From: a virus
DNA: 21,099 bases
Reading direction: 5' to 3' (one strand)
Virus record (IMG/VR): IMGVR_UViG_3300021371_000123
Coordinates: 1-21,099 of that record
Of the stretch, positions 1-20,774 are shown one piece after another. Made by a program: the position numbers and the translations under genes. The notes beneath the pieces were generated by a model that saw only the letters and a list, made by a program, of their open reading frames with translations, did not search any database and was not told the DNA's origin. Each line of letters begins with the position of its first letter. Within the stretch, counting starts at the first letter, position 1.

Positions 1-154
1 CACTAGCGCCTATCACACCAGTAGCGCCTCCCGGACCTTGAGAACCAGTAGCACCGTCTACACCAGTAGCGCCTATAGCACCAGTAGCGCCTGAAGGACC
101 GTCTGGACCACTAGCGCCCTCTACACCCGTAGCACCCCGTGGACCCGAAGCACC
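1..154 (-). repeat. Collagen-like Gly-X-Y coding repeat
   Basis: The end of the tail-tip frame encodes 17 consecutive Gly-X-Y triplets (residues 1819-1869), rich in GAT, GAS and GPx, and the next base continues with G. In DNA this is an imperfect 9-nt periodicity built around GGC/GGT-GCT-ACT. Such repeats in phage fibres form a trimeric triple-helical stalk between the tail and the receptor-binding tip. The repeat is cut by the window edge, so its full length is unknown. Confidence 0.95.
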
Positions 155-3100
155 CGGTATATTCTTACCAATAGAAAGTCTTTTTACTACGGATGTCTGA
201 TTTGCTTCAGAATCTCGAATAGTTACAGTAAAGTCTACAAAAGCGTTTTGAGCGTCTGCAAGAGTCGGATTTCCAAAATTACTTATTTCTCCGTAGTCTA
301 CAGAAGTTCTAGGGTTAGGTATAGGGCTAGGTATTACTTCAACTGGAGCTTGGCAGTTAGTTGCAACTATATTAGATACAAAGAACACTAAACCGGGGTA
401 AGTTACTTCCGGCACATAGCTACCATTAGTTACTAAAGTTCCTGATAAATCTGCAAAAGTTTCGGGACTTACCGAAGTTTGTACTTCCAAAGTATTAGTT
501 TCATTAAAGAGAGTAGAGCCTTCAACAGTAACAACGATTGTAGTACCGTCATCATTGTTTTCTGAGGTTGATACTACGGTACCTTCGACCAAGCTGACTT
601 TTTGTCTTATTAAATCCCCTTCAACAAGACCTAATCCGGTTGCGCCTACCAAAAGACTTACTGTATCACTATACGTTAATGCCGTAGAGCCAGAAGTCGC
701 AAATATTTGGGTAGTAGTAGCTTCATAGTCTATTGCAGTTCCTACCAAGCTTCCCGAAATTCCTGACTCAGTAGTAGGAAAGTTAGGGGTTACAGTTAAA
801 GTATTGTTTGTAAAACCGGTAACTTCATATGTGCCATCATTAGAAGGGCTAACAGTGCTACCTGTTAAAGTTATGTTAGTTCCTACCGCATTGAAAGGAT
901 GGTCGGAGCCAGTATTAATAGTATTTCCTGCTACAGAAGCATTTGTAAGAGTAAATGCTGACTGCGATACCACTACGTTTGCGTTACTATTGGTTAGATC
1001 TACGCTAATAGAAGACAGCCCTATTAAAGATAGTCCTTCAATTCCCGATACTCTAGATGCCTCAAGTAACTGTGCCATTCCACGATCATCAGGAAAGAAG
1101 TCTCCAAACAGACTGATGCCAGATACTGAGGTAGCTCTATTTGTTCGACGTATTCTTACCCAGTAATAAAATTTGGAAGAGTCTGTATCATTTATTAAAG
1201 ATAAAATAGAGTCTACATACCGCTCTTCTTTAGTGGTGCCAACAAGAGTGGCTCCAGTACCTGCTACATAAGGGACATCCTCAGCAGTGTTACCTGGAAT
1301 TTCAAGAGTAGAATAAGGAGGATTATCAGAAGGAGTTCCATAATAATCAGGCTCTGTTCCTCTCCAGATTTCGTATACATCTGTGTTTGTATTAAATCCC
1401 GATCTTTCAGGAGACTCCCCTTTTCCGGGATAGTCCCACGCGAGCTCAATACCACCTTGCTTGTTACTTGTAGCAGTAAGATTTGAAACCACTTCGGGTC
1501 TGCCTATAGTGGCGACTCCGGGAGGGGCTGGATTAAACGAGCCAGTCTCTGATTCGCCTTCTGGAACTAAATAGGCATCATTATTATGCTCTTCTGCAGT
1601 AATCTTTACTAAACAATCCTGTGTTAAAGTAAGATTATTAATTCTAAACGGCTTATTGGTATAACCAAGCCGCTCATTTGTAATATAAATTAACTCACCC
1701 GCTAAAAGTAAGTAGCCTTTTGGACCTATTGTAAAGCTTATTTTTAAGCTATACCGAGATTCCTCAAGAGCTTGTTTAGCCGCTAATCTAGCATTATAAT
1801 AGTTTGTTATACCCGGTGCTTTTACATCGCCTTTCTTGGGTATATTTCTATCTTCTTTTAGATAAGTAGAGTTTAAGAAAGTTACTGATCTATTTTCAAA
1901 TCTATTCTGGGGATCTGGTATAGATGCACTAACAGTATTATAAGTACCTTTATTTCCCGCATCTTCAATATTGATAGTACCGATAATATCATCTTCTGTA
2001 ATTATAGAAGGCGTACTTGTTCCTAAAGTAGGTATACTATCAGGCTGGCGAGATTTAACGTCTAAGTCATATCTACCATTATTGTATCGGAGTATTCCGT
2101 TAAAGTGGCTAAGAATACTATTTACGTTGTCGAATACTGATTTTGCGGTATCAACAACAATATTAGTTTGGTGTCTAGTTACATAGTCTTGGTCTTGATC
2201 ATTCCAACCCAGATATCTCCAGTAAGGAACATCATCTGAATCATATAGGGAGTAGCCGTCTACAAGATTTCCTCCTGTCCCTCGGAACTTGACAATGGCA
2301 TTGCCCGCGAAAGAGTCTCCAATATAGTCTGCATCAGATCCGCCTCTCGGATAGTTAATTTCTAGAGTATCTTGATTTCCTCGATTCATTCTACGAAGAG
2401 TTACTTCGTTACTTGCAGCCAAGTAAGTGTACGTAGTTGCGGCGTTGTCAGGAATAGGAGCTGTGTTAAACACTGTTCCAGCAGTGTCTACTCTCACCAC
2501 TCTAGTCACACTCCCGGAATTAGGCTCATTTATATAGAAAAGTTCTCGTTCTCCCCAAGCCTTCCAATTATTCCACTTAGAAATAATTTTTCCTAATATA
2601 TCAGTAAATATGACTTCGGTAGTATCGGTCTCAGATATATAAGTTGCAGACTTTACAGTTCCTCGGAAGTTTTTATAGTCTACATTATTATTAGTCCAGC
2701 CGTCTTCAAAGATATCACCTACCTGAACAGGCGCACTTGCACCTCCAGTAGTCTGGTCTCCTCTAAAATGAACCGTTACATCAGATCTAGTATCACACTG
2801 GCGAGCCGTTTCTTTAAAAGTATCTAAATTAATGTCTTCTTTTAAGCTGAGTCCCCTGCCGTAACGAGAGTTCGTCATATAGTCAAGAAGCTGTAACGCA
2901 GGGTTATTAGTAACTCGTCTGTCTTTAGGAGCAATAATTCTTACTTTATCGCCCTGAACAGGAATATAATCAACGTCCCAAGGAGAGTCAACTATCGCTA
3001 CTTTTCTATTATTAGAACCTGCATTAGTTAAGTAGTCTATAACAGTTCGTATCTGAACGTGAGAGCTTCCATCCGCGTCAATTCTAGTAAGTTCGATTTG

Positions 3101-5608
3101 CGCACCTATATAAAAATCGTCTACTGCAGAAGCATTCACAGATCCTACAGTATCGGGTATAGCAACGGTATTTACGAGTACTAGAGCAGTTAAACTGCTA
3201 GAAGATACGTCTTGAGTTCCTACACTCTCAATGGTCCCATTAGTGCTTGTATTTGCTGTAGGAGTTGCCGAAAGTAAATTAAAGATAGGAGCAGTACCTA
3301 ACTCATTAAGGTCAGCCTCGCCTAAACTATCTAGTAGTTCTGCGGCGAGCGCCATTTGAACTTCTGTAGAAGCGTTTACATCTGCAACCGTACTGTTAGA
3401 ATCGACAGTGACATCTGTTCCTTGATTGTTTGATCCTGAAGAAGTAGAAACGACTGTCTCTTCTAGAGTTTCTGGAACAGTACCTAAAGGCAAATACTCA
3501 TGTGTGTCTGCTATGAAGTATGCGCGCGTGCTAGCATCTCCATTTTTGGAAATAGAGAAGCGGCTTAATCCGGGATCTTCCGTAAATCTAACTTTATACT
3601 GAATTACTCCATTTTCATCTTTGTCATCGTAAATGGCAGCAATTCTTAAATTACCCTGGCTAACTCCGTCCTCATCGTAGTAAGGAATAAGTTGAATTTT
3701 ACCCCAGTTTGACAAATCAGCACTAGTTTCCACCGGGTCAAGGCGGTAGCTATAGTCATAGTTATGACAATCTACCAACTTCCCTTTAACTACGAAGTCT
3801 AGCTCGGGGATTTCTGTTTCGCCTTCGTTAATTTTATACTTTGCAACTACATAAGCTGTATCAAGAACTCTATGGTTAGGGCCCCAGTAGCGTGCTTTGT
3901 CGCCATCAAAGTAAGCACTTTGGATCTTAAACTGATTATTTAAGGCTTTTGCTAGTAGAAAGTTATCCGCTCGCTGGTTAGGCTTGCCCGCGTAAAAAAT
4001 AAGTCTCGCATCAATTGGGTCATCAAAAGTTCTACCAAACCCGTGTCTAACACCTATACTAGAATTTTGTGCTACAGCATTCGGACGTCTTCCGGGCGTC
4101 TCCCATTGACCTGTAGTAGGGTTATAAACTGCATTTCCTGTTGGGGGGATTTGCCCTCGATCATTCGATGGATCCCACCACAGATCTTCCTCATAATCAT
4201 CAGTTGGATAAGTAATATTTGTTGAGGTAGCAAAAGGATTTTCTCCAAGAAGAACATCGCCTCTATCCATTCGGCCAGTACATAATACTGCTACAGCGTT
4301 ATCTTGTCCTCGTGTGCTACGAGTGTCCGAGTCATTTTCACTAAGACAAATACTACTTTGTCCATCAAAGTATATATCAAAAAGACTATGTACTTCACCC
4401 TCGCACAGAGCATAAGCTATGTAAACTTCTGTAGAATCGTTTTTATCCGTATCTACGAAGAATGGAATAGCGTCTACTTGCTGAACACCGTAGACTATGG
4501 GGAGATATTTTGCAGACAGGTTAAATCTTAAGTCAGCTTCTCTATCTACTTCTACTTGGTACTCTATCTGCTTATAGGATTTTTTAAGCCCAAACCAGCT
4601 ACTTTTCTTTTTCAGCTTATATCTAGTTTCTTTTACTTGATAAATAGCAATAAGATTAATTGCTTGCTCAGAGTGCATAAACCCTAAGTCAGTAGCATAT
4701 TCTTTTCTTTTTACGGCACCTAAATCAGATAGGCCACTAGAGCTTAAAGCTCTGTGCTCTGTATCAGAAGTAATTCTGCCATTAACATTTATAAAGTCAC
4801 CCCAGTGGCTAGTAACACTCCAAGAAACCGTAGGCTTGCCTAAAACGTCTTCTTTTTGTTTGCCGCTAGCAATAATGCCTTTAAATACTAAAAAGGGTGC
4901 ACTCAATATTTCACCAGTATCTGGATTAATATGTGCTTTATATATAAAAACTTCTCGATTAATATATCGAGAGTAGGTGGGATCTTCTCTGTCTATTATT
5001 AAGCCGCTTAATTCTCTATTGTTTAAAGAAAAGTCAAGGCCAGAAGTAGATCCCGAAGTAACAGTTAATACGCCATCTACTACTGTATAATGGGCTGTTT
5101 TATTATCGTTCGAGAACCTATCTAATCTAAAAGTTATTCCTGAGTTCCAAGAAGCGTCCTCACTTTTAATTTCGTGACCTTCAATAAAGCCAAGATCAAC
5201 CCAATCTTCTCCAGAGGTAATTTCAAGAGTATCACTAACCGTATTTATAGTGATAGTAAGATTTGAGACGGATGTAGAGAGTGCGGCGGCATCTAGAGTA
5301 ATAGTAAAGTTAGAGGCTCGTGCCTCGATAGTTTCCGTAATATTAGATAGATTGAGTAGCCTGTTTGCAAGATAAGTCTGCGTTTGATTTAACTGCCCAT
5401 CTGCGTTTTCACTTCCATCGTCAAATTTTATATCGTAAGAGGCATCTGTTACATAAGTATATGTAGTTCTATCTCTAGAAGGTATATCGGCAGTAATCTT
5501 TAGAGGCTTCTCAAATTTTACGAGGTGCGCATATACAAAGACTTCCCCCTCTAGTAAAGAGTCTCTTAAATCGGTGTTGCTTCCGTTGTCTAAGTTTCTA
5601 AATGTCAT
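1..5608 (-). CDS. Tail-tip / central hub protein (TipJ-type) with C-terminal collagen-like fibre, partial
   Basis: This frame reads from an ATG at 5608 to the window edge without a stop, giving at least 1869 residues; the 3' end is missing. Residues about 1-270 look like a distal-tail (Dit/DUF2163-like) module (SRYINREVFIYKAHI near 214). LPIVYGVQQVDAIPFF near 371 and NPALQLLDYMTNSRYGRG near 900 are typical of lambda J/TipJ hub proteins, which cap the tube and anchor fibres. A fibronectin-III-like domain lies at about 1365-1490, beta-rich Thr/Ser/Val sequence at 1500-1810, and Gly-X-Y triplets from 1819. The start ATG overlaps the upstream stop as ATGA, with only a weak AAGAAG ribosome site, so translation is probably coupled. 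Position directly after the tape measure and minor tail gene fits. I infer host recognition at the missing C-terminus. The hub assignment is firm; the domain borders are approximate. Confidence 0.92.
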   Translation of the reverse strand, partial: MTFRNLDNGSNTDLRDSLLEGEVFVYAHLVKFEKPLKITADIPSRDRTTYTYVTDASYDIKFDDGSENADGQLNQTQTYLANRLLNLSNITETIEARASNFTITLDAAALSTSVSNLTITINTVSDTLEITSGEDWVDLGFIEGHEIKSEDASWNSGITFRLDRFSNDNKTAHYTVVDGVLTVTSGSTSGLDFSLNNRELSGLIIDREDPTYSRYINREVFIYKAHINPDTGEILSAPFLVFKGIIASGKQKEDVLGKPTVSWSVTSHWGDFINVNGRITSDTEHRALSSSGLSDLGAVKRKEYATDLGFMHSEQAINLIAIYQVKETRYKLKKKSSWFGLKKSYKQIEYQVEVDREADLRFNLSAKYLPIVYGVQQVDAIPFFVDTDKNDSTEVYIAYALCEGEVHSLFDIYFDGQSSICLSENDSDTRSTRGQDNAVAVLCTGRMDRGDVLLGENPFATSTNITYPTDDYEEDLWWDPSNDRGQIPPTGNAVYNPTTGQWETPGRRPNAVAQNSSIGVRHGFGRTFDDPIDARLIFYAGKPNQRADNFLLAKALNNQFKIQSAYFDGDKARYWGPNHRVLDTAYVVAKYKINEGETEIPELDFVVKGKLVDCHNYDYSYRLDPVETSADLSNWGKIQLIPYYDEDGVSQGNLRIAAIYDDKDENGVIQYKVRFTEDPGLSRFSISKNGDASTRAYFIADTHEYLPLGTVPETLEETVVSTSSGSNNQGTDVTVDSNSTVADVNASTEVQMALAAELLDSLGEADLNELGTAPIFNLLSATPTANTSTNGTIESVGTQDVSSSSLTALVLVNTVAIPDTVGSVNASAVDDFYIGAQIELTRIDADGSSHVQIRTVIDYLTNAGSNNRKVAIVDSPWDVDYIPVQGDKVRIIAPKDRRVTNNPALQLLDYMTNSRYGRGLSLKEDINLDTFKETARQCDTRSDVTVHFRGDQTTGGASAPVQVGDIFEDGWTNNNVDYKNFRGTVKSATYISETDTTEVIFTDILGKIISKWNNWKAWGERELFYINEPNSGSVTRVVRVDTAGTVFNTAPIPDNAATTYTYLAASNEVTLRRMNRGNQDTLEINYPRGGSDADYIGDSFAGNAIVKFRGTGGNLVDGYSLYDSDDVPYWRYLGWNDQDQDYVTRHQTNIVVDTAKSVFDNVNSILSHFNGILRYNNGRYDLDVKSRQPDSIPTLGTSTPSIITEDDIIGTINIEDAGNKGTYNTVSASIPDPQNRFENRSVTFLNSTYLKEDRNIPKKGDVKAPGITNYYNARLAAKQALEESRYSLKISFTIGPKGYLLLAGELIYITNERLGYTNKPFRINNLTLTQDCLVKITAEEHNNDAYLVPEGESETGSFNPAPPGVATIGRPEVVSNLTATSNKQGGIELAWDYPGKGESPERSGFNTNTDVYEIWRGTEPDYYGTPSDNPPYSTLEIPGNTAEDVPYVAGTGATLVGTTKEERYVDSILSLINDTDSSKFYYWVRIRRTNRATSVSGISLFGDFFPDDRGMAQLLEASRVSGIEGLSLIGLSSISVDLTNSNANVVVSQSAFTLTNASVAGNTINTGSDHPFNAVGTNITLTGSTVSPSNDGTYEVTGFTNNTLTVTPNFPTTESGISGSLVGTAIDYEATTTQIFATSGSTALTYSDTVSLLVGATGLGLVEGDLIRQKVSLVEGTVVSTSENNDDGTTIVVTVEGSTLFNETNTLEVQTSVSPETFADLSGTLVTNGSYVPEVTYPGLVFFVSNIVATNCQAPVEVIPSPIPNPRTSVDYGEISNFGNPTLADAQNAFVDFTVTIRDSEANQTSVVKRLSIGKNIPGASGPRGATGVEGASGPDGPSGATGAIGATGVDGATGSQGPGGATGVIGAS

Positions 5609-16865: not shown

Positions 16866-18908
16866 TTACCAAGTGTGTGCAACAACCTGGCCACCAGCAC
16901 CATCAGCAAAGAGGTTCTTAAATCCTCGACGCTGAGTAGCAACTAGTACGCGACGCTGTTCTGCAACTTGATAGTCTGAATCGACTGTAACACCACGAAG
17001 TTGTGGAATTACGAAGTTGCGAGCATTTACAGCTACGCCCCAGTAGTTACCTTGAGTCTTTCCACCAACAAACTCGTCACATACAACTACGGGTGAGCCG
17101 TAGATGTTAGCGATTTCACCAGTGACACGAGTAGCTCGCTGATCACCGACTTCGTTGATTGGCTGGAAGTCTCCATCGTCAAGCAAGTCGTAGTACGCAT
17201 CAAGAGAGATGACGAACATTACATCACCAGGACGACGACCATACTTGCCCATAGCTTGGCGCATATTCAACAGGTCCGCTGAAGTAGCAGTAGCTTGGCC
17301 AGCTGAACCAAGGTCAAGAACCTTAGAATCATCTGCAGCAAGCTTAACAAGACCATCGTAAGAAGTACCGTTTGCAGCTACCTGACCAGAAACTCCACCA
17401 AGAAGCAGAGAGTTTTCGATAGCTCGTGCGTGGGCACGTACCATAGCTTCACGGATCAGAGGAAGAATTGGCATAATTGCATCTTCTTCTGTTTCGTTAG
17501 CGATGTAAGAACGAGAGATAAGACGTGCAGTTGTAAGAACAACTTGGTCCATGTCGATACCTGCGTTAGAACCGGGAGAAGTGCCATTACGCTCTTCAAG
17601 AGTTCCACCAAAGCCGTCACCGCTAGTAGGATCGAAGCTGTTGTTCGCCCAATCAGCATAGCCAGCATCAGGCATTGTAGGTACGATCATAGACGATGAA
17701 GTCATATTGATCTTACGGAACATTGGATCGAGAACTAGCTCGAGCTCGATGTCACGCTCAACGGCTGTTGAAACGATCTGCTCGAAGTCATCGCCGGGAA
17801 CTCGTACACCAGAATTAGCGTTAGCAGCCTTCTCGAGGACTTCACGACCAAACTTAGTGTTCTCCATACCTTTCTTAGTTACTACACCAAGAATGTGTGC
17901 ATTTACCATATCTTCTTCAGATACAGACTTCTGTGAACGATCTGCGAATACACGCTTAGACTCGTTGATTTTTTGAATTTCGTCAGACTTCTGAGTCAAT
18001 TCTTCTTTAAGTTCGCCAATGATACGTGAGTAGTCAGCGTCCTTTTCATTCATCTTAGCTTCAACATCAGCTAAGAGCTTTTCTGTACCTGATTGTACAG
18101 CAGTTACGATGCGAGCTTCTTCTGCAGACTTTTGCACTTCAGCTTCTTCAGCAGCTTTTTGCTCTGCTTCCAATGCTTTTGCTTCCTCTGCCTTACGCTC
18201 AGCTTCTTTCATTGCCATAGCAGTAGCCGTCTTCTCGACAGCAGATGCTACAATGGCGTCGATATCAATATCACTCATAGTTTTCTCCTGTGCTAGGGAT
18301 TCTTCTAATCCCTTTGGCATTGACTCGTCGGATTTTCCGAACTCAATAGTTACGCTATCTTCGGTCTCCCGAACATTGCGTATATGTTTCTCTTCCGAGG
18401 AGTCTTCTAGTTTGAAAGATTTTTTGAATTCTTCATAATCCGTTTCCGAATCAAAAGATTTCGCAAGAGAAAAGGTTGCAGCCTGGTTAGCAGGAACCGT
18501 TACTACTGAAACTTCCAATAGTTCTGCGTCCTTTATCTTATATCCGTCGGTTTCCACCATATAATCCGCATCCTTGACTCGGAAACCAACTGAAAAAGCT
18601 CCAAGAACGCCTTCTTTAATCAATTCACCTACGTGACCGGCTGATTTAGCAATTTTTGCTTTTAACTGCAAACCATTGTCATTAGTACCAAGCTGAACTG
18701 CTCGGCCAATCGGTTGATTGTAGTCGTGATTAAAAAGAATTACGGGATTGTTTAGATAATTATCGAGACCGCCTTTAGTCCAAGCGGCAGTTTCAATAAC
18801 ATCGCCTACTCGATCAGTACCATTGGTACTTGCCATTCCGGTGATATGAAGATCGTCTCCGTCTTCAAACGCCTTGAAAGTCGAGCCTATGTGGAAAATT
18901 TTATTCAT
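16866..18908 (-). CDS. Fused HK97-type prohead protease, scaffold and major capsid protein
   Basis: One 680-residue frame holds three parts that many phages encode separately. Residues 1-about 155 are a U35-family prohead protease: NPVILFNHDYNQPIGRA with candidate catalytic His61, GAFSVGFR with Ser106 and ELLEVSVVTVPAN with Glu132. Residues about 211-320 are a Glu/Ala/Lys coiled coil like the delta/scaffold domain. Residues about 335-680 have an HK97 capsid pattern: ERDIELELVLDPMFRKI, RAHARAIENSLLLG, YGRRPGDVMFVISLDAYY, GSPVVVCDEF and a C-terminal RRGFKNLFADGAGG. The protease normally removes the scaffold and itself during head maturation. ATG 18908 overlaps the upstream stop by 8 nt. An internal ATG at 18278 (Met211) with a strong ribosome site could make a 470-residue scaffold-capsid product. 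Cleavage sites are not visible by eye. Confidence 0.93.
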   Translation of the reverse strand: MNKIFHIGSTFKAFEDGDDLHITGMASTNGTDRVGDVIETAAWTKGGLDNYLNNPVILFNHDYNQPIGRAVQLGTNDNGLQLKAKIAKSAGHVGELIKEGVLGAFSVGFRVKDADYMVETDGYKIKDAELLEVSVVTVPANQAATFSLAKSFDSETDYEEFKKSFKLEDSSEEKHIRNVRETEDSVTIEFGKSDESMPKGLEESLAQEKTMSDIDIDAIVASAVEKTATAMAMKEAERKAEEAKALEAEQKAAEEAEVQKSAEEARIVTAVQSGTEKLLADVEAKMNEKDADYSRIIGELKEELTQKSDEIQKINESKRVFADRSQKSVSEEDMVNAHILGVVTKKGMENTKFGREVLEKAANANSGVRVPGDDFEQIVSTAVERDIELELVLDPMFRKINMTSSSMIVPTMPDAGYADWANNSFDPTSGDGFGGTLEERNGTSPGSNAGIDMDQVVLTTARLISRSYIANETEEDAIMPILPLIREAMVRAHARAIENSLLLGGVSGQVAANGTSYDGLVKLAADDSKVLDLGSAGQATATSADLLNMRQAMGKYGRRPGDVMFVISLDAYYDLLDDGDFQPINEVGDQRATRVTGEIANIYGSPVVVCDEFVGGKTQGNYWGVAVNARNFVIPQLRGVTVDSDYQVAEQRRVLVATQRRGFKNLFADGAGGQVVAHTW
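18276..18289 (-). promoter_or_regulatory. Internal ribosome binding site and ATG within the protease-capsid gene
   Basis: AGGAG (18285-18289) stands 6 nt before the in-frame ATG 18278 (Met211), a spacing better than that of the gene's own first ATG. It lies at the border between the protease part and the scaffold coiled coil, and the new product would begin MSDIDIDAIVASAVEK. This is what one expects if capsid subunit is made in excess over the fused protease. Confidence 0.7.
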
Positions 18909-19215
18909 GCTCTTCTTCCTTATCTGCTCTTGCTGTTCGTAGAGCCGCTAACGGATCTACTTCTGGCTTAAGCTCTGGAGCCGGTGAGGGCTCAGGGGTT
19001 GCAGGGGTATGTACAACCCCCAGTTTCTTATCATAGATTTCGTGCCAACGATCGGAGTGTGTCTTCTTAAGTCTACGGACCATTAGTCGTAAACCTTGTG
19101 AACTAAGACGCATTCTTTCACGTTTAGCGCGAACTCTAATTTCTTTCATACCGAGCTCTTCTCCGGCTTCTACAAACCAGCTGAAGACGAGTTCAGGGTA
19201 ATCGCTACGATTCAT
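18901..19215 (-). CDS. Small unknown protein between portal and protease-capsid genes
   Basis: A 104-residue protein I do not recognise. The first half is helical and strongly basic (MKEIRVRAKRERMRLSSQGLR, then RRLKKTHSDRWHEIYDKKLG); the second half is a Pro/Glu-rich linker and an acidic end (KEEEHE). That charge split could suit a DNA- or capsid-binding head protein, which is inference only. Tandem ATGs lie at 19218 and 19215; AAGGAG is 6 nt from the second and 3 nt from the first, so I took 19215. The frame stays open upstream to 19425, but that part is out of phase with the portal gene, reads as an antisense-like shadow and lacks a ribosome site. It overlaps the portal stop by 11 nt and the capsid-fusion start by 8 nt. 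Confidence 0.62.
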   Translation of the reverse strand: MNRSDYPELVFSWFVEAGEELGMKEIRVRAKRERMRLSSQGLRLMVRRLKKTHSDRWHEIYDKKLGVVHTPATPEPSPAPELKPEVDPLAALRTARADKEEEHE

Positions 19216-20410
19216 CATTTTCTCCTTCTTCGGGGCGGCCACCTTCTGACGGGTTGACCGCTGACCCGGCGATGTTCTGAGGTACTCGAATGTCATCGAA
19301 CCCTTCTTGAGCATCATAGTTAATAGCGGCTCGAGCTTCATTTGGAGTAAGTATTCCTGCATTGACCAAAGAAGTATAATAGGCTGCTGCATCACGAAGC
19401 TCAGGTTGAAGGGCTGGAATATCACTTACGTCGGAAGCAATCTCATAGCCAAAGAACCGCTCAATAGCCGAGTTGATTTTATCAAGAATCGGCAAAACTG
19501 TTTCTAAATAGTAAAGTCTATGGTTAGGTCGCAGGTTAGCATTATTACCAGAATCAAGAAGAATTGGGGGAATGCCTAGAGTTTTTAAAACTTCTTTCTC
19601 TGCTGACTCAATCGAAGTCTCAAAGTCCATTTCTCTGAAGTTGACATTTGAAATTTTATCAAGTTCCATACCACCATCTAAAATTAGGGGTCGTCGTCCT
19701 CCACCATCTGGACGATAGCGCATAACCCAAGACTGAATCATTCGCTCTTTATTTTTCTCACTAATAATGGAGGGCGACTTAATTACAAGTCCGGGCACTG
19801 CTCCATTCTTAAAGAAGTTATCTTGAAACTCTCGCATTTTTGTAAGCTGCTGCATAGTACGGCGAGAGGCGCGAAGGCGGCTAGTTCCACGATAGATACT
19901 ATCGAAACTATTCTCTTTTATATGGATAATTTCTGAAGTACTATAGTCTACACTGCTTTGGAAAGTATACCCAGCAACATAAGTTGTCTTATCGGGTTCA
20001 ATATCCATATAATTAGCTGGAATGTGATACAGAGAAATCCCATCATAATAAATAAAAATATTCCCGTCTAGAATATAATCAAGGATGAGGTTTCTCTTGA
20101 AAGTCGATATATCCTGAAACGGGTTTGGTTGTTTATTTAGTAAAAGATTTACTCTCGATCGGCGCAAACCTTTTTGAACAGGGTCTAATCCTTGAATAGG
20201 AACCCCTACTCTAAATGGGACTTCTGCTGCATCATCAGTAATCATATTCACACCACGATTAACGACTTCAAGCGTTTCGTAGTACGAAGTATAACTTCTA
20301 GGGACTTCGCGAGACCCAATAGGGCCTGACCCCTCTAGGCTGTATACGATTTCCTCTTGTGCGGGATTTAGCTTTTCAGTTCGTCCCAATAGTCTGTCAT
20401 ACCAAGCCAT
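19205..20410 (-). CDS. Portal protein (HK97 family)
   Basis: A 401-residue protein forming the dodecameric DNA entry ring of the head. From ATG 20410 it starts MAWYDRLLGRTEKLNPAQE. Family landmarks follow: a helical YETLEVVNRGVNMITDDAAEVPF region, SEIIHIKENSFD with IYRGTSRLRASR, a FQDNFFKNGAVPGLVIKSP strand-helix, then LILDGGMELDKISNVNFREMDF and the KTLGIPPILLDSGNNANLR loop before the LYYLETVLPILDKINSAIERFF crown helix. The frame is open from an ATG at 20479, but that stretch overlaps the HNH gene, has no ribosome site and does not look like portal, so 20410 is preferred; its own ribosome site is weak and the 14-nt overlap with the HNH stop suggests coupling. The end is Gly/Glu/Asp-rich. Confidence 0.93.
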   Translation of the reverse strand: MAWYDRLLGRTEKLNPAQEEIVYSLEGSGPIGSREVPRSYTSYYETLEVVNRGVNMITDDAAEVPFRVGVPIQGLDPVQKGLRRSRVNLLLNKQPNPFQDISTFKRNLILDYILDGNIFIYYDGISLYHIPANYMDIEPDKTTYVAGYTFQSSVDYSTSEIIHIKENSFDSIYRGTSRLRASRRTMQQLTKMREFQDNFFKNGAVPGLVIKSPSIISEKNKERMIQSWVMRYRPDGGGRRPLILDGGMELDKISNVNFREMDFETSIESAEKEVLKTLGIPPILLDSGNNANLRPNHRLYYLETVLPILDKINSAIERFFGYEIASDVSDIPALQPELRDAAAYYTSLVNAGILTPNEARAAINYDAQEGFDDIRVPQNIAGSAVNPSEGGRPEEGENDES

Positions 20411-20774
20411 GTTTGTCTCGTTGAATCTCCACCCATCGCTTCTGTTTTTCTGCAGTATGAAGCGGTGGATTCCTTCCATATATGGAATGTAATTGTAGAT
20501 GATGGTCGTGGCAGAGAGTTACAGTCTCCTGGTACATCTCAGCCCAATTATCATCAATAAACTCGTCTCGCCAAATAGTAATATACTCATCCGTGTAATG
20601 CTCAGGTCTCAACTCTACTTTTTCCTTTAACCATTTTTCTAGTAGAGGAGTTAGCGTGTAAAAGTGATGAAAGTCTAGCTTAATCTTTACACCACAAATT
20701 CTACAGTCTGAGCCCTTTTCGTACCTTGCTTTGGCACGGTCTCGAATGTACTTAATTTTATCTCTTTTCAGCAT
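20397..20774 (-). CDS. HNH homing-type endonuclease
   Basis: A 125-residue protein with a zinc-ribbon HNH pattern: CRIC at Cys24/Cys27, DFHHF with His36/His37, and a second cluster CHDHHLQLH with Cys88, His89, His91, His92 and His96, followed by YGRN. Such small HNH enzymes stand beside the terminase genes in many phages (HK97 gp74 is the best known) and aid packaging nuclease activity; others are selfish homing enzymes. Position between TerL and portal supports the packaging role, but I cannot tell the two apart. The ATG 20774 lies 7 nt after the -10 box of a near-consensus promoter, so its mRNA may be leaderless; there is no ribosome site. The stop overlaps the portal start by 14 nt. Confidence 0.8.
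   Translation of the reverse strand: MLKRDKIKYIRDRAKARYEKGSDCRICGVKIKLDFHHFYTLTPLLEKWLKEKVELRPEHYTDEYITIWRDEFIDDNWAEMYQETVTLCHDHHLQLHSIYGRNPPLHTAEKQKRWVEIQRDKHGLV

Follow-up and report, generated by a model that had tools for sequence, protein, structure and literature searches.

A conserved internal start at the protease/scaffold border suggests two nested in-frame cistrons in a phage protease-scaffold-capsid fusion gene

In phage lambda, an in-frame internal start within the protease gene C yields the C-terminal scaffold part of that gene, Nu3. By analogy, C/Nu3 is the closest precedent for the locus described here, in which an in-frame start with a putative ribosome site also lies inside the protease gene at the scaffold border. 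Lambda encodes its capsid in a gene of its own, E, and its internal product consists of just the scaffold, whereas the internal product predicted here includes the capsid. The proteases differ as well, lambda C being of the S49 type according to its gene table entry and the protease of our locus of the S78 type. Another likeness is found with the T5-type pb11/pb8 pair of Demerecviridae, where a homologous protease and scaffold-bearing capsid share the order seen here and a ribosome site precedes the capsid start, but where a stop separates the two as distinct genes in 21 of the 25 loci examined, whereas our locus is one gene.

Passages of three papers describe one gene for protease, scaffold and capsid in small actinophages and in Pseudomonas phage MD8 (PMC7302621, PMC5513430, PMC8508860). 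Those passages do not mention an internal start, and none of the three main texts contains the word 'internal'. The actinophage and MD8 fusions belong to different families from ours, being either members of phrog_2263 or fusions of a protease with Phage_capsid_4. A literature search that reached few subscription papers brought up no protease-capsid fusion with a described internal start. Such a fusion poses a stoichiometry puzzle, as every shell subunit comes with its own protease. The puzzle would disappear with a conserved internal start, which would also let a phage tie the delivery of the protease to the assembly of the shell. Such a start also predicts a capsid-precursor N terminus in many phages annotated with one fused protein, cultured actinophages included.

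The window, that is the whole stretch of DNA analysed, is the IMG/VR virus record IMGVR_UViG_3300021371_000123 with a length of 21,099 bases. On its minus strand, which carries all features given below, a single open frame of 680 aa (16866..18908) encodes a protease-linker-scaffold-capsid fusion. The main start ATG (18906-18908) is preceded by a Shine-Dalgarno-like AAGGA (18917..18921). The S78 prohead protease domain spans aa 22-149 (18462..18845), where Peptidase_S78 (PF04586) matches with an E value of 1.3e-16, and TIGR01543 (HK97 prohead protease) scores 71.9 bits on the fusion ORF against a cut-off of 59. H61 and S106 of the protease, which we take to be the catalytic residues, are invariant in 171 fused relatives. 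The protease is followed by a hypervariable in-frame linker (aa 166-210, 18279..18413), a delta/scaffold domain of about 150 aa (17829..18278) and the major capsid domain (16869..17828), the C-terminal part matching phrog_267, a major head protein family, and the capsid chain 5tjt. The prohead protease/MCP fusion family NF045541 scores 44.4 bits over aa 52-270 only, below its curated cut-off of 525 bits. A portal gene lies upstream of the fusion gene and head-tail and tail genes lie downstream. The end of an ORF of 174 aa (18901-19425), which has no match in the PHROGs search, overlaps the start of the fusion gene, and this overlap suggests translational coupling of the two.

At the protease/scaffold border the first-pass annotation had pointed to an ATG at 18278 with AGGAG at 6 nt that opens a frame of 470 residues. 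Direct reading of the sequence confirms this: the ATG (18276..18278) is codon 211 of the fusion ORF (M211), the 6-nt spacer AAAACT separates it from AGGAG (18285..18289), and 470 codons run from it in the frame of the fusion. The Shine-Dalgarno pairing energy at the border ATG has a median of -6.6 kcal/mol in 171 distinct relatives compared to -1.5 for the 2706 other in-frame ATGs, and a value of -6.4 is reached at 88% of border ATGs versus 3.4% of the others. Ranked by strength among the internal ATGs, the border ATG comes first in 109 of the 171 ORFs and within the top three in 169. The border site exceeds chance. Folding at the internal starts (mean of -9.4 kcal/mol) is slightly less than at random in-frame sites (-10.8) and more than at main starts (-6.4). 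When the sequences are recoded synonymously, 14% of draws per sequence pair as strongly as observed, so that a single sequence is weak evidence and the case rests on conservation. This figure leaves some room for the reading that the full-length fusion is the sole product and that the ATG and AGGAG are incidental coding. The same reading has a second form, in which the two are left over as a relic from a time when the capsid had its own gene; the relic is plausible since split T5-like relatives carry a site at the same place.

To describe the conservation of the site, we collected 270 loci, counting the window but no T5-like records, using seeds from four lineages; the relatives are the best 80 of 470, 521, 506 and 414 in four scans. 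The fusion is open in 269 of the 270 loci, 258 of them complete one-frame fusions and 11 fused but truncated, which departs from the separate protease and capsid genes of HK97/T5-type head modules. The remaining locus (L108) is interrupted by a TGA inside the protease, within the conserved GF-VKDAD motif, in a gene that is otherwise fused; we took this one-base change as a sequencing error or a broken copy. Two different fused genes (L278 and L279, on contigs C42 and C43 of G001) occur in one gammaproteobacterial MAG and are probably those of two phages binned with it.

The 258 complete loci correspond to 171 distinct proteins and 56 distinct upstream 24-mers. The 171 include near-duplicates that differ in where they were trimmed; these do not inflate the parsimony counts given below. 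The first-pass annotation had staked its proposal on the site being kept in fused relatives, and the proposal passes this test: all 171 have the ATG with a GGAG or AGGA core 6-9 nt before it. The site is GGAG at 6 nt in 77 relatives, AGGAG at 6 nt in 68 and AGGA at 7 nt in 19, with GGAG at 9 nt (5 relatives) and AGGA at 8 nt (2 relatives) being rarer. The bases of the spacer vary while its length stays at 6-9 nt. Despite the hypervariable linker, the residue after the border Met is Ser in 169 of 171 relatives and Asp in the other 2.

Mean identity between random pairs is 28% in the linker, 71% in the protease and 58% in the scaffold-capsid part. Within this variable region all 171 relatives have G at -10 and A at -8, with zero changes on the tree. 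The codon at -12 to -10 is CAG in 55 relatives, ACG in 47, ATG in 30, AAG in 26, GAG in 11 and AGG in 2, and parsimony on the tree counts 16 amino-acid changes and 0 third-base changes for it; over 623 columns the median number of third-base changes is 23 and the 5th percentile is 9. No two-fold column among the 103 compared (median of 16) has fewer synonymous changes than the aligned Glu codon before the spacer (E208 in the window), which has 1. A codon that changes its amino acid 16 times and its third base 0 times indicates that selection is acting on the nucleotides at the border site. A relic would be expected to decay in a linker of 28% identity, yet base -10 stays unchanged through the 16 amino-acid changes of its codon, and we consider it very improbable that the fusion is the only product and the site incidental or left over.

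The conserved purine core could instead serve ribosome pausing at the domain border, or act as an mRNA signal, without initiation. Shine-Dalgarno-like sequences within genes can pause ribosomes, which speaks for such a role. Pausing, however, requires neither an ATG at near-fixed spacing from the core, with spacer bases that vary and a length held at 6-9 nt, nor a Ser next to it, and the same position is the start of the capsid gene in split relatives. We therefore regard a role without initiation as quite unlikely and an internal start as the better reading of the site. In the 30 relatives in which the codon at -12 to -10 is itself ATG (for example L095 and L097), this ATG has its own GGAG upstream wherever the upstream sequence was listed, and these relatives may have tandem internal starts four codons apart.

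Residues 18-461 of the predicted 470-aa product align with residues 25-450 of 8ho3, the T5-type major head protein precursor of 458 aa (E value of 1.1e-51). The mature T5 capsid chain 5tjt also matches by sequence (E value of 1.6e-46), with its residue 1 at residue 151 of the internal product. By these sequence matches the product is an HK97-fold capsid with an N-terminal scaffold domain. An alignment to 8ho3 that begins near the N terminus, together with the start of 5tjt at 151, places the internal start where a separate capsid precursor would begin.

The first-pass annotation had also proposed comparing the site between relatives with split and fused genes. The 25 T5-like loci examined comprise 21 with split genes, 2 without a protease ORF and 2 that are fused (L365 and L366). 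A Shine-Dalgarno-like site of -4.1 or better precedes the capsid start in 21 of 21 split loci. The stop codon of the protease lies between this ribosome site and the capsid start, at -5 to -10, in 11 of the 21, a count in which the stop given to L351 is a distant one, even though L351 and L353 have identical junction sequences. In JSF10 the protease and capsid genes share a frame and are separated by one stop. Losing or gaining a stop would interconvert the fused and split layouts, in either direction. A midpoint-rooted capsid tree, which took in 16 fused relatives of the 270-locus set plus L365 and L366, has its 18 fused and 22 split sequences on opposite sides. L365 and L366 form the deepest fused branch; they were found after the conservation counts and served as a check outside them. 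There AGAGGA lies 7 nt before a border ATG, and the ORF has no stronger internal ATG than this one. The separate 470-residue scaffold-capsid product put forward by the first-pass annotation thus gains support from conservation, from the T5-type alignment and from the L365/L366 branch, and is retained as a prediction. The linker of L365 and L366 (ORF aa ~228-255) includes the stretch EELILEIAKELDILK, which on visual inspection resembles the C-terminal tail of proteases from split T5-like loci, such as VLEKLALALGIRKEN before the stop in L081.

The fused frame is kept as well. The linker occurs in 22 lengths, and each of its at least 33 length changes has preserved the frame, although a one-step change would turn 2152 of the 5501 linker codons into a stop and the +1 and +2 frames of the linker hold stops in 299 of 342 cases. 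A frame kept through these length changes and open in 269 of 270 loci suggests that the fused form is also under selection. A need for two separate proteins only would leave the gene free to gain a stop, so that selection seems to act in favour of the internal start and of the fusion alike. One could argue that initiation at 18278 does occur and that the fused form is a by-product without a role of its own, given that phages of the HK97 and T5 types assemble heads with a separate protease and capsid precursor. We find this unlikely because the frame has survived at least 33 length changes and is maintained in 269 of 270 loci, where a stop would separate the genes as in the 21 split relatives. 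A sequencing or assembly error that hides a stop codon deserves a mention, as the window is an IMG/VR virus record and L108 shows that single-base stops are found in such data; with 258 complete and 11 truncated loci fused and 1 not, this explanation is refuted and we give it practically no weight.

Taken together, we consider it very probable that the gene consists of two nested in-frame cistrons, one for the fused protease-scaffold-capsid protein and one for the scaffold-capsid precursor, both products being predicted from sequence. Ribosomes starting at 18908 would make the 680-aa fusion. Those loading at AGGAG 18285-18289 and starting at 18278 would make the 470-aa precursor. We hypothesize that the short form would provide most shell subunits and that the fused form would enter the growing shell via its own scaffold-capsid part, bringing the protease into the prohead. 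Once inside, the protease would cut off the scaffold domains. The first-pass annotation had proposed that the gene yields few fused copies and many capsid subunits. Its internal start at the border stands, while the ratio is unsupported: Shine-Dalgarno energies at the main and internal starts are similar (medians of -7.1 and -6.6, n = 167), in a comparison where the choice of main start is biased towards strong sites.

We extended the analysis to other protease-capsid fusions, namely 25 members of phrog_2263 and 6 protease/Phage_capsid_4 fusions, five of the latter having a Clp protease and one (RcKemmy) an S78 match. Left out of the counts were L283, L299 and L302, L284 and L287 (no usable fused frame) and L281 (no fused frame on the plus strand). 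The small-actinophage fusions examined also have a border start, like the window. A border start of -4.3 or better is found in 22 of 25 phrog_2263 members (ATG or GTG) and in 6 of 6 Phage_capsid_4 fusions (ATG), compared to 16% of non-border sites in phrog_2263 (65/409, ATG and GTG) and 8% in Phage_capsid_4 fusions (9/106, ATG). L320 and L337 have no clear border start and that of L333 is weak (-3.8). For phrog_2263, the best ATG of the ORF falls in the border in 15 of 25 cases against 5.0 expected (P about 1e-5). For the Phage_capsid_4 fusions this ranking is not significant (1 of 6 against 0.8 expected); the one notable feature there is a border ATG of -5.6 or better in 6 of 6, versus 8 of 106 other ATGs.

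A synonymous-shuffle test of the border starts in 15 unrelated fusions is not significant (Fisher P of 0.75). The test used 15 representatives of 25 usable ORFs, 9 further ORFs without the motif being dropped. It is a weak test: the site is already spelled by the amino acids, GTG counts are high, and at least two ORFs (L329 and L333) had their protease motif placed wrongly. Its result nevertheless counts against a general rule. Under such a rule, fusion genes with unrelated proteases, arisen more than once, would be nested cistrons that keep a border start, the capsid would be made mainly without the protease and annotations would misname the main product. On balance we lean towards this rule, which is likely, although the result for the family of the window itself is firmer.

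Elsewhere in the window, an ORF of 1869 aa (2-5608) is open at the contig end and its C-terminal part is a collagen-like Gly-X-Y repeat of the GATG type; it is probably a tail protein. A small ORF (20397-20774) with a CRICG...HHF...HH pattern presumably resembles an HNH nuclease and would sit between a terminase-like end and the portal gene.
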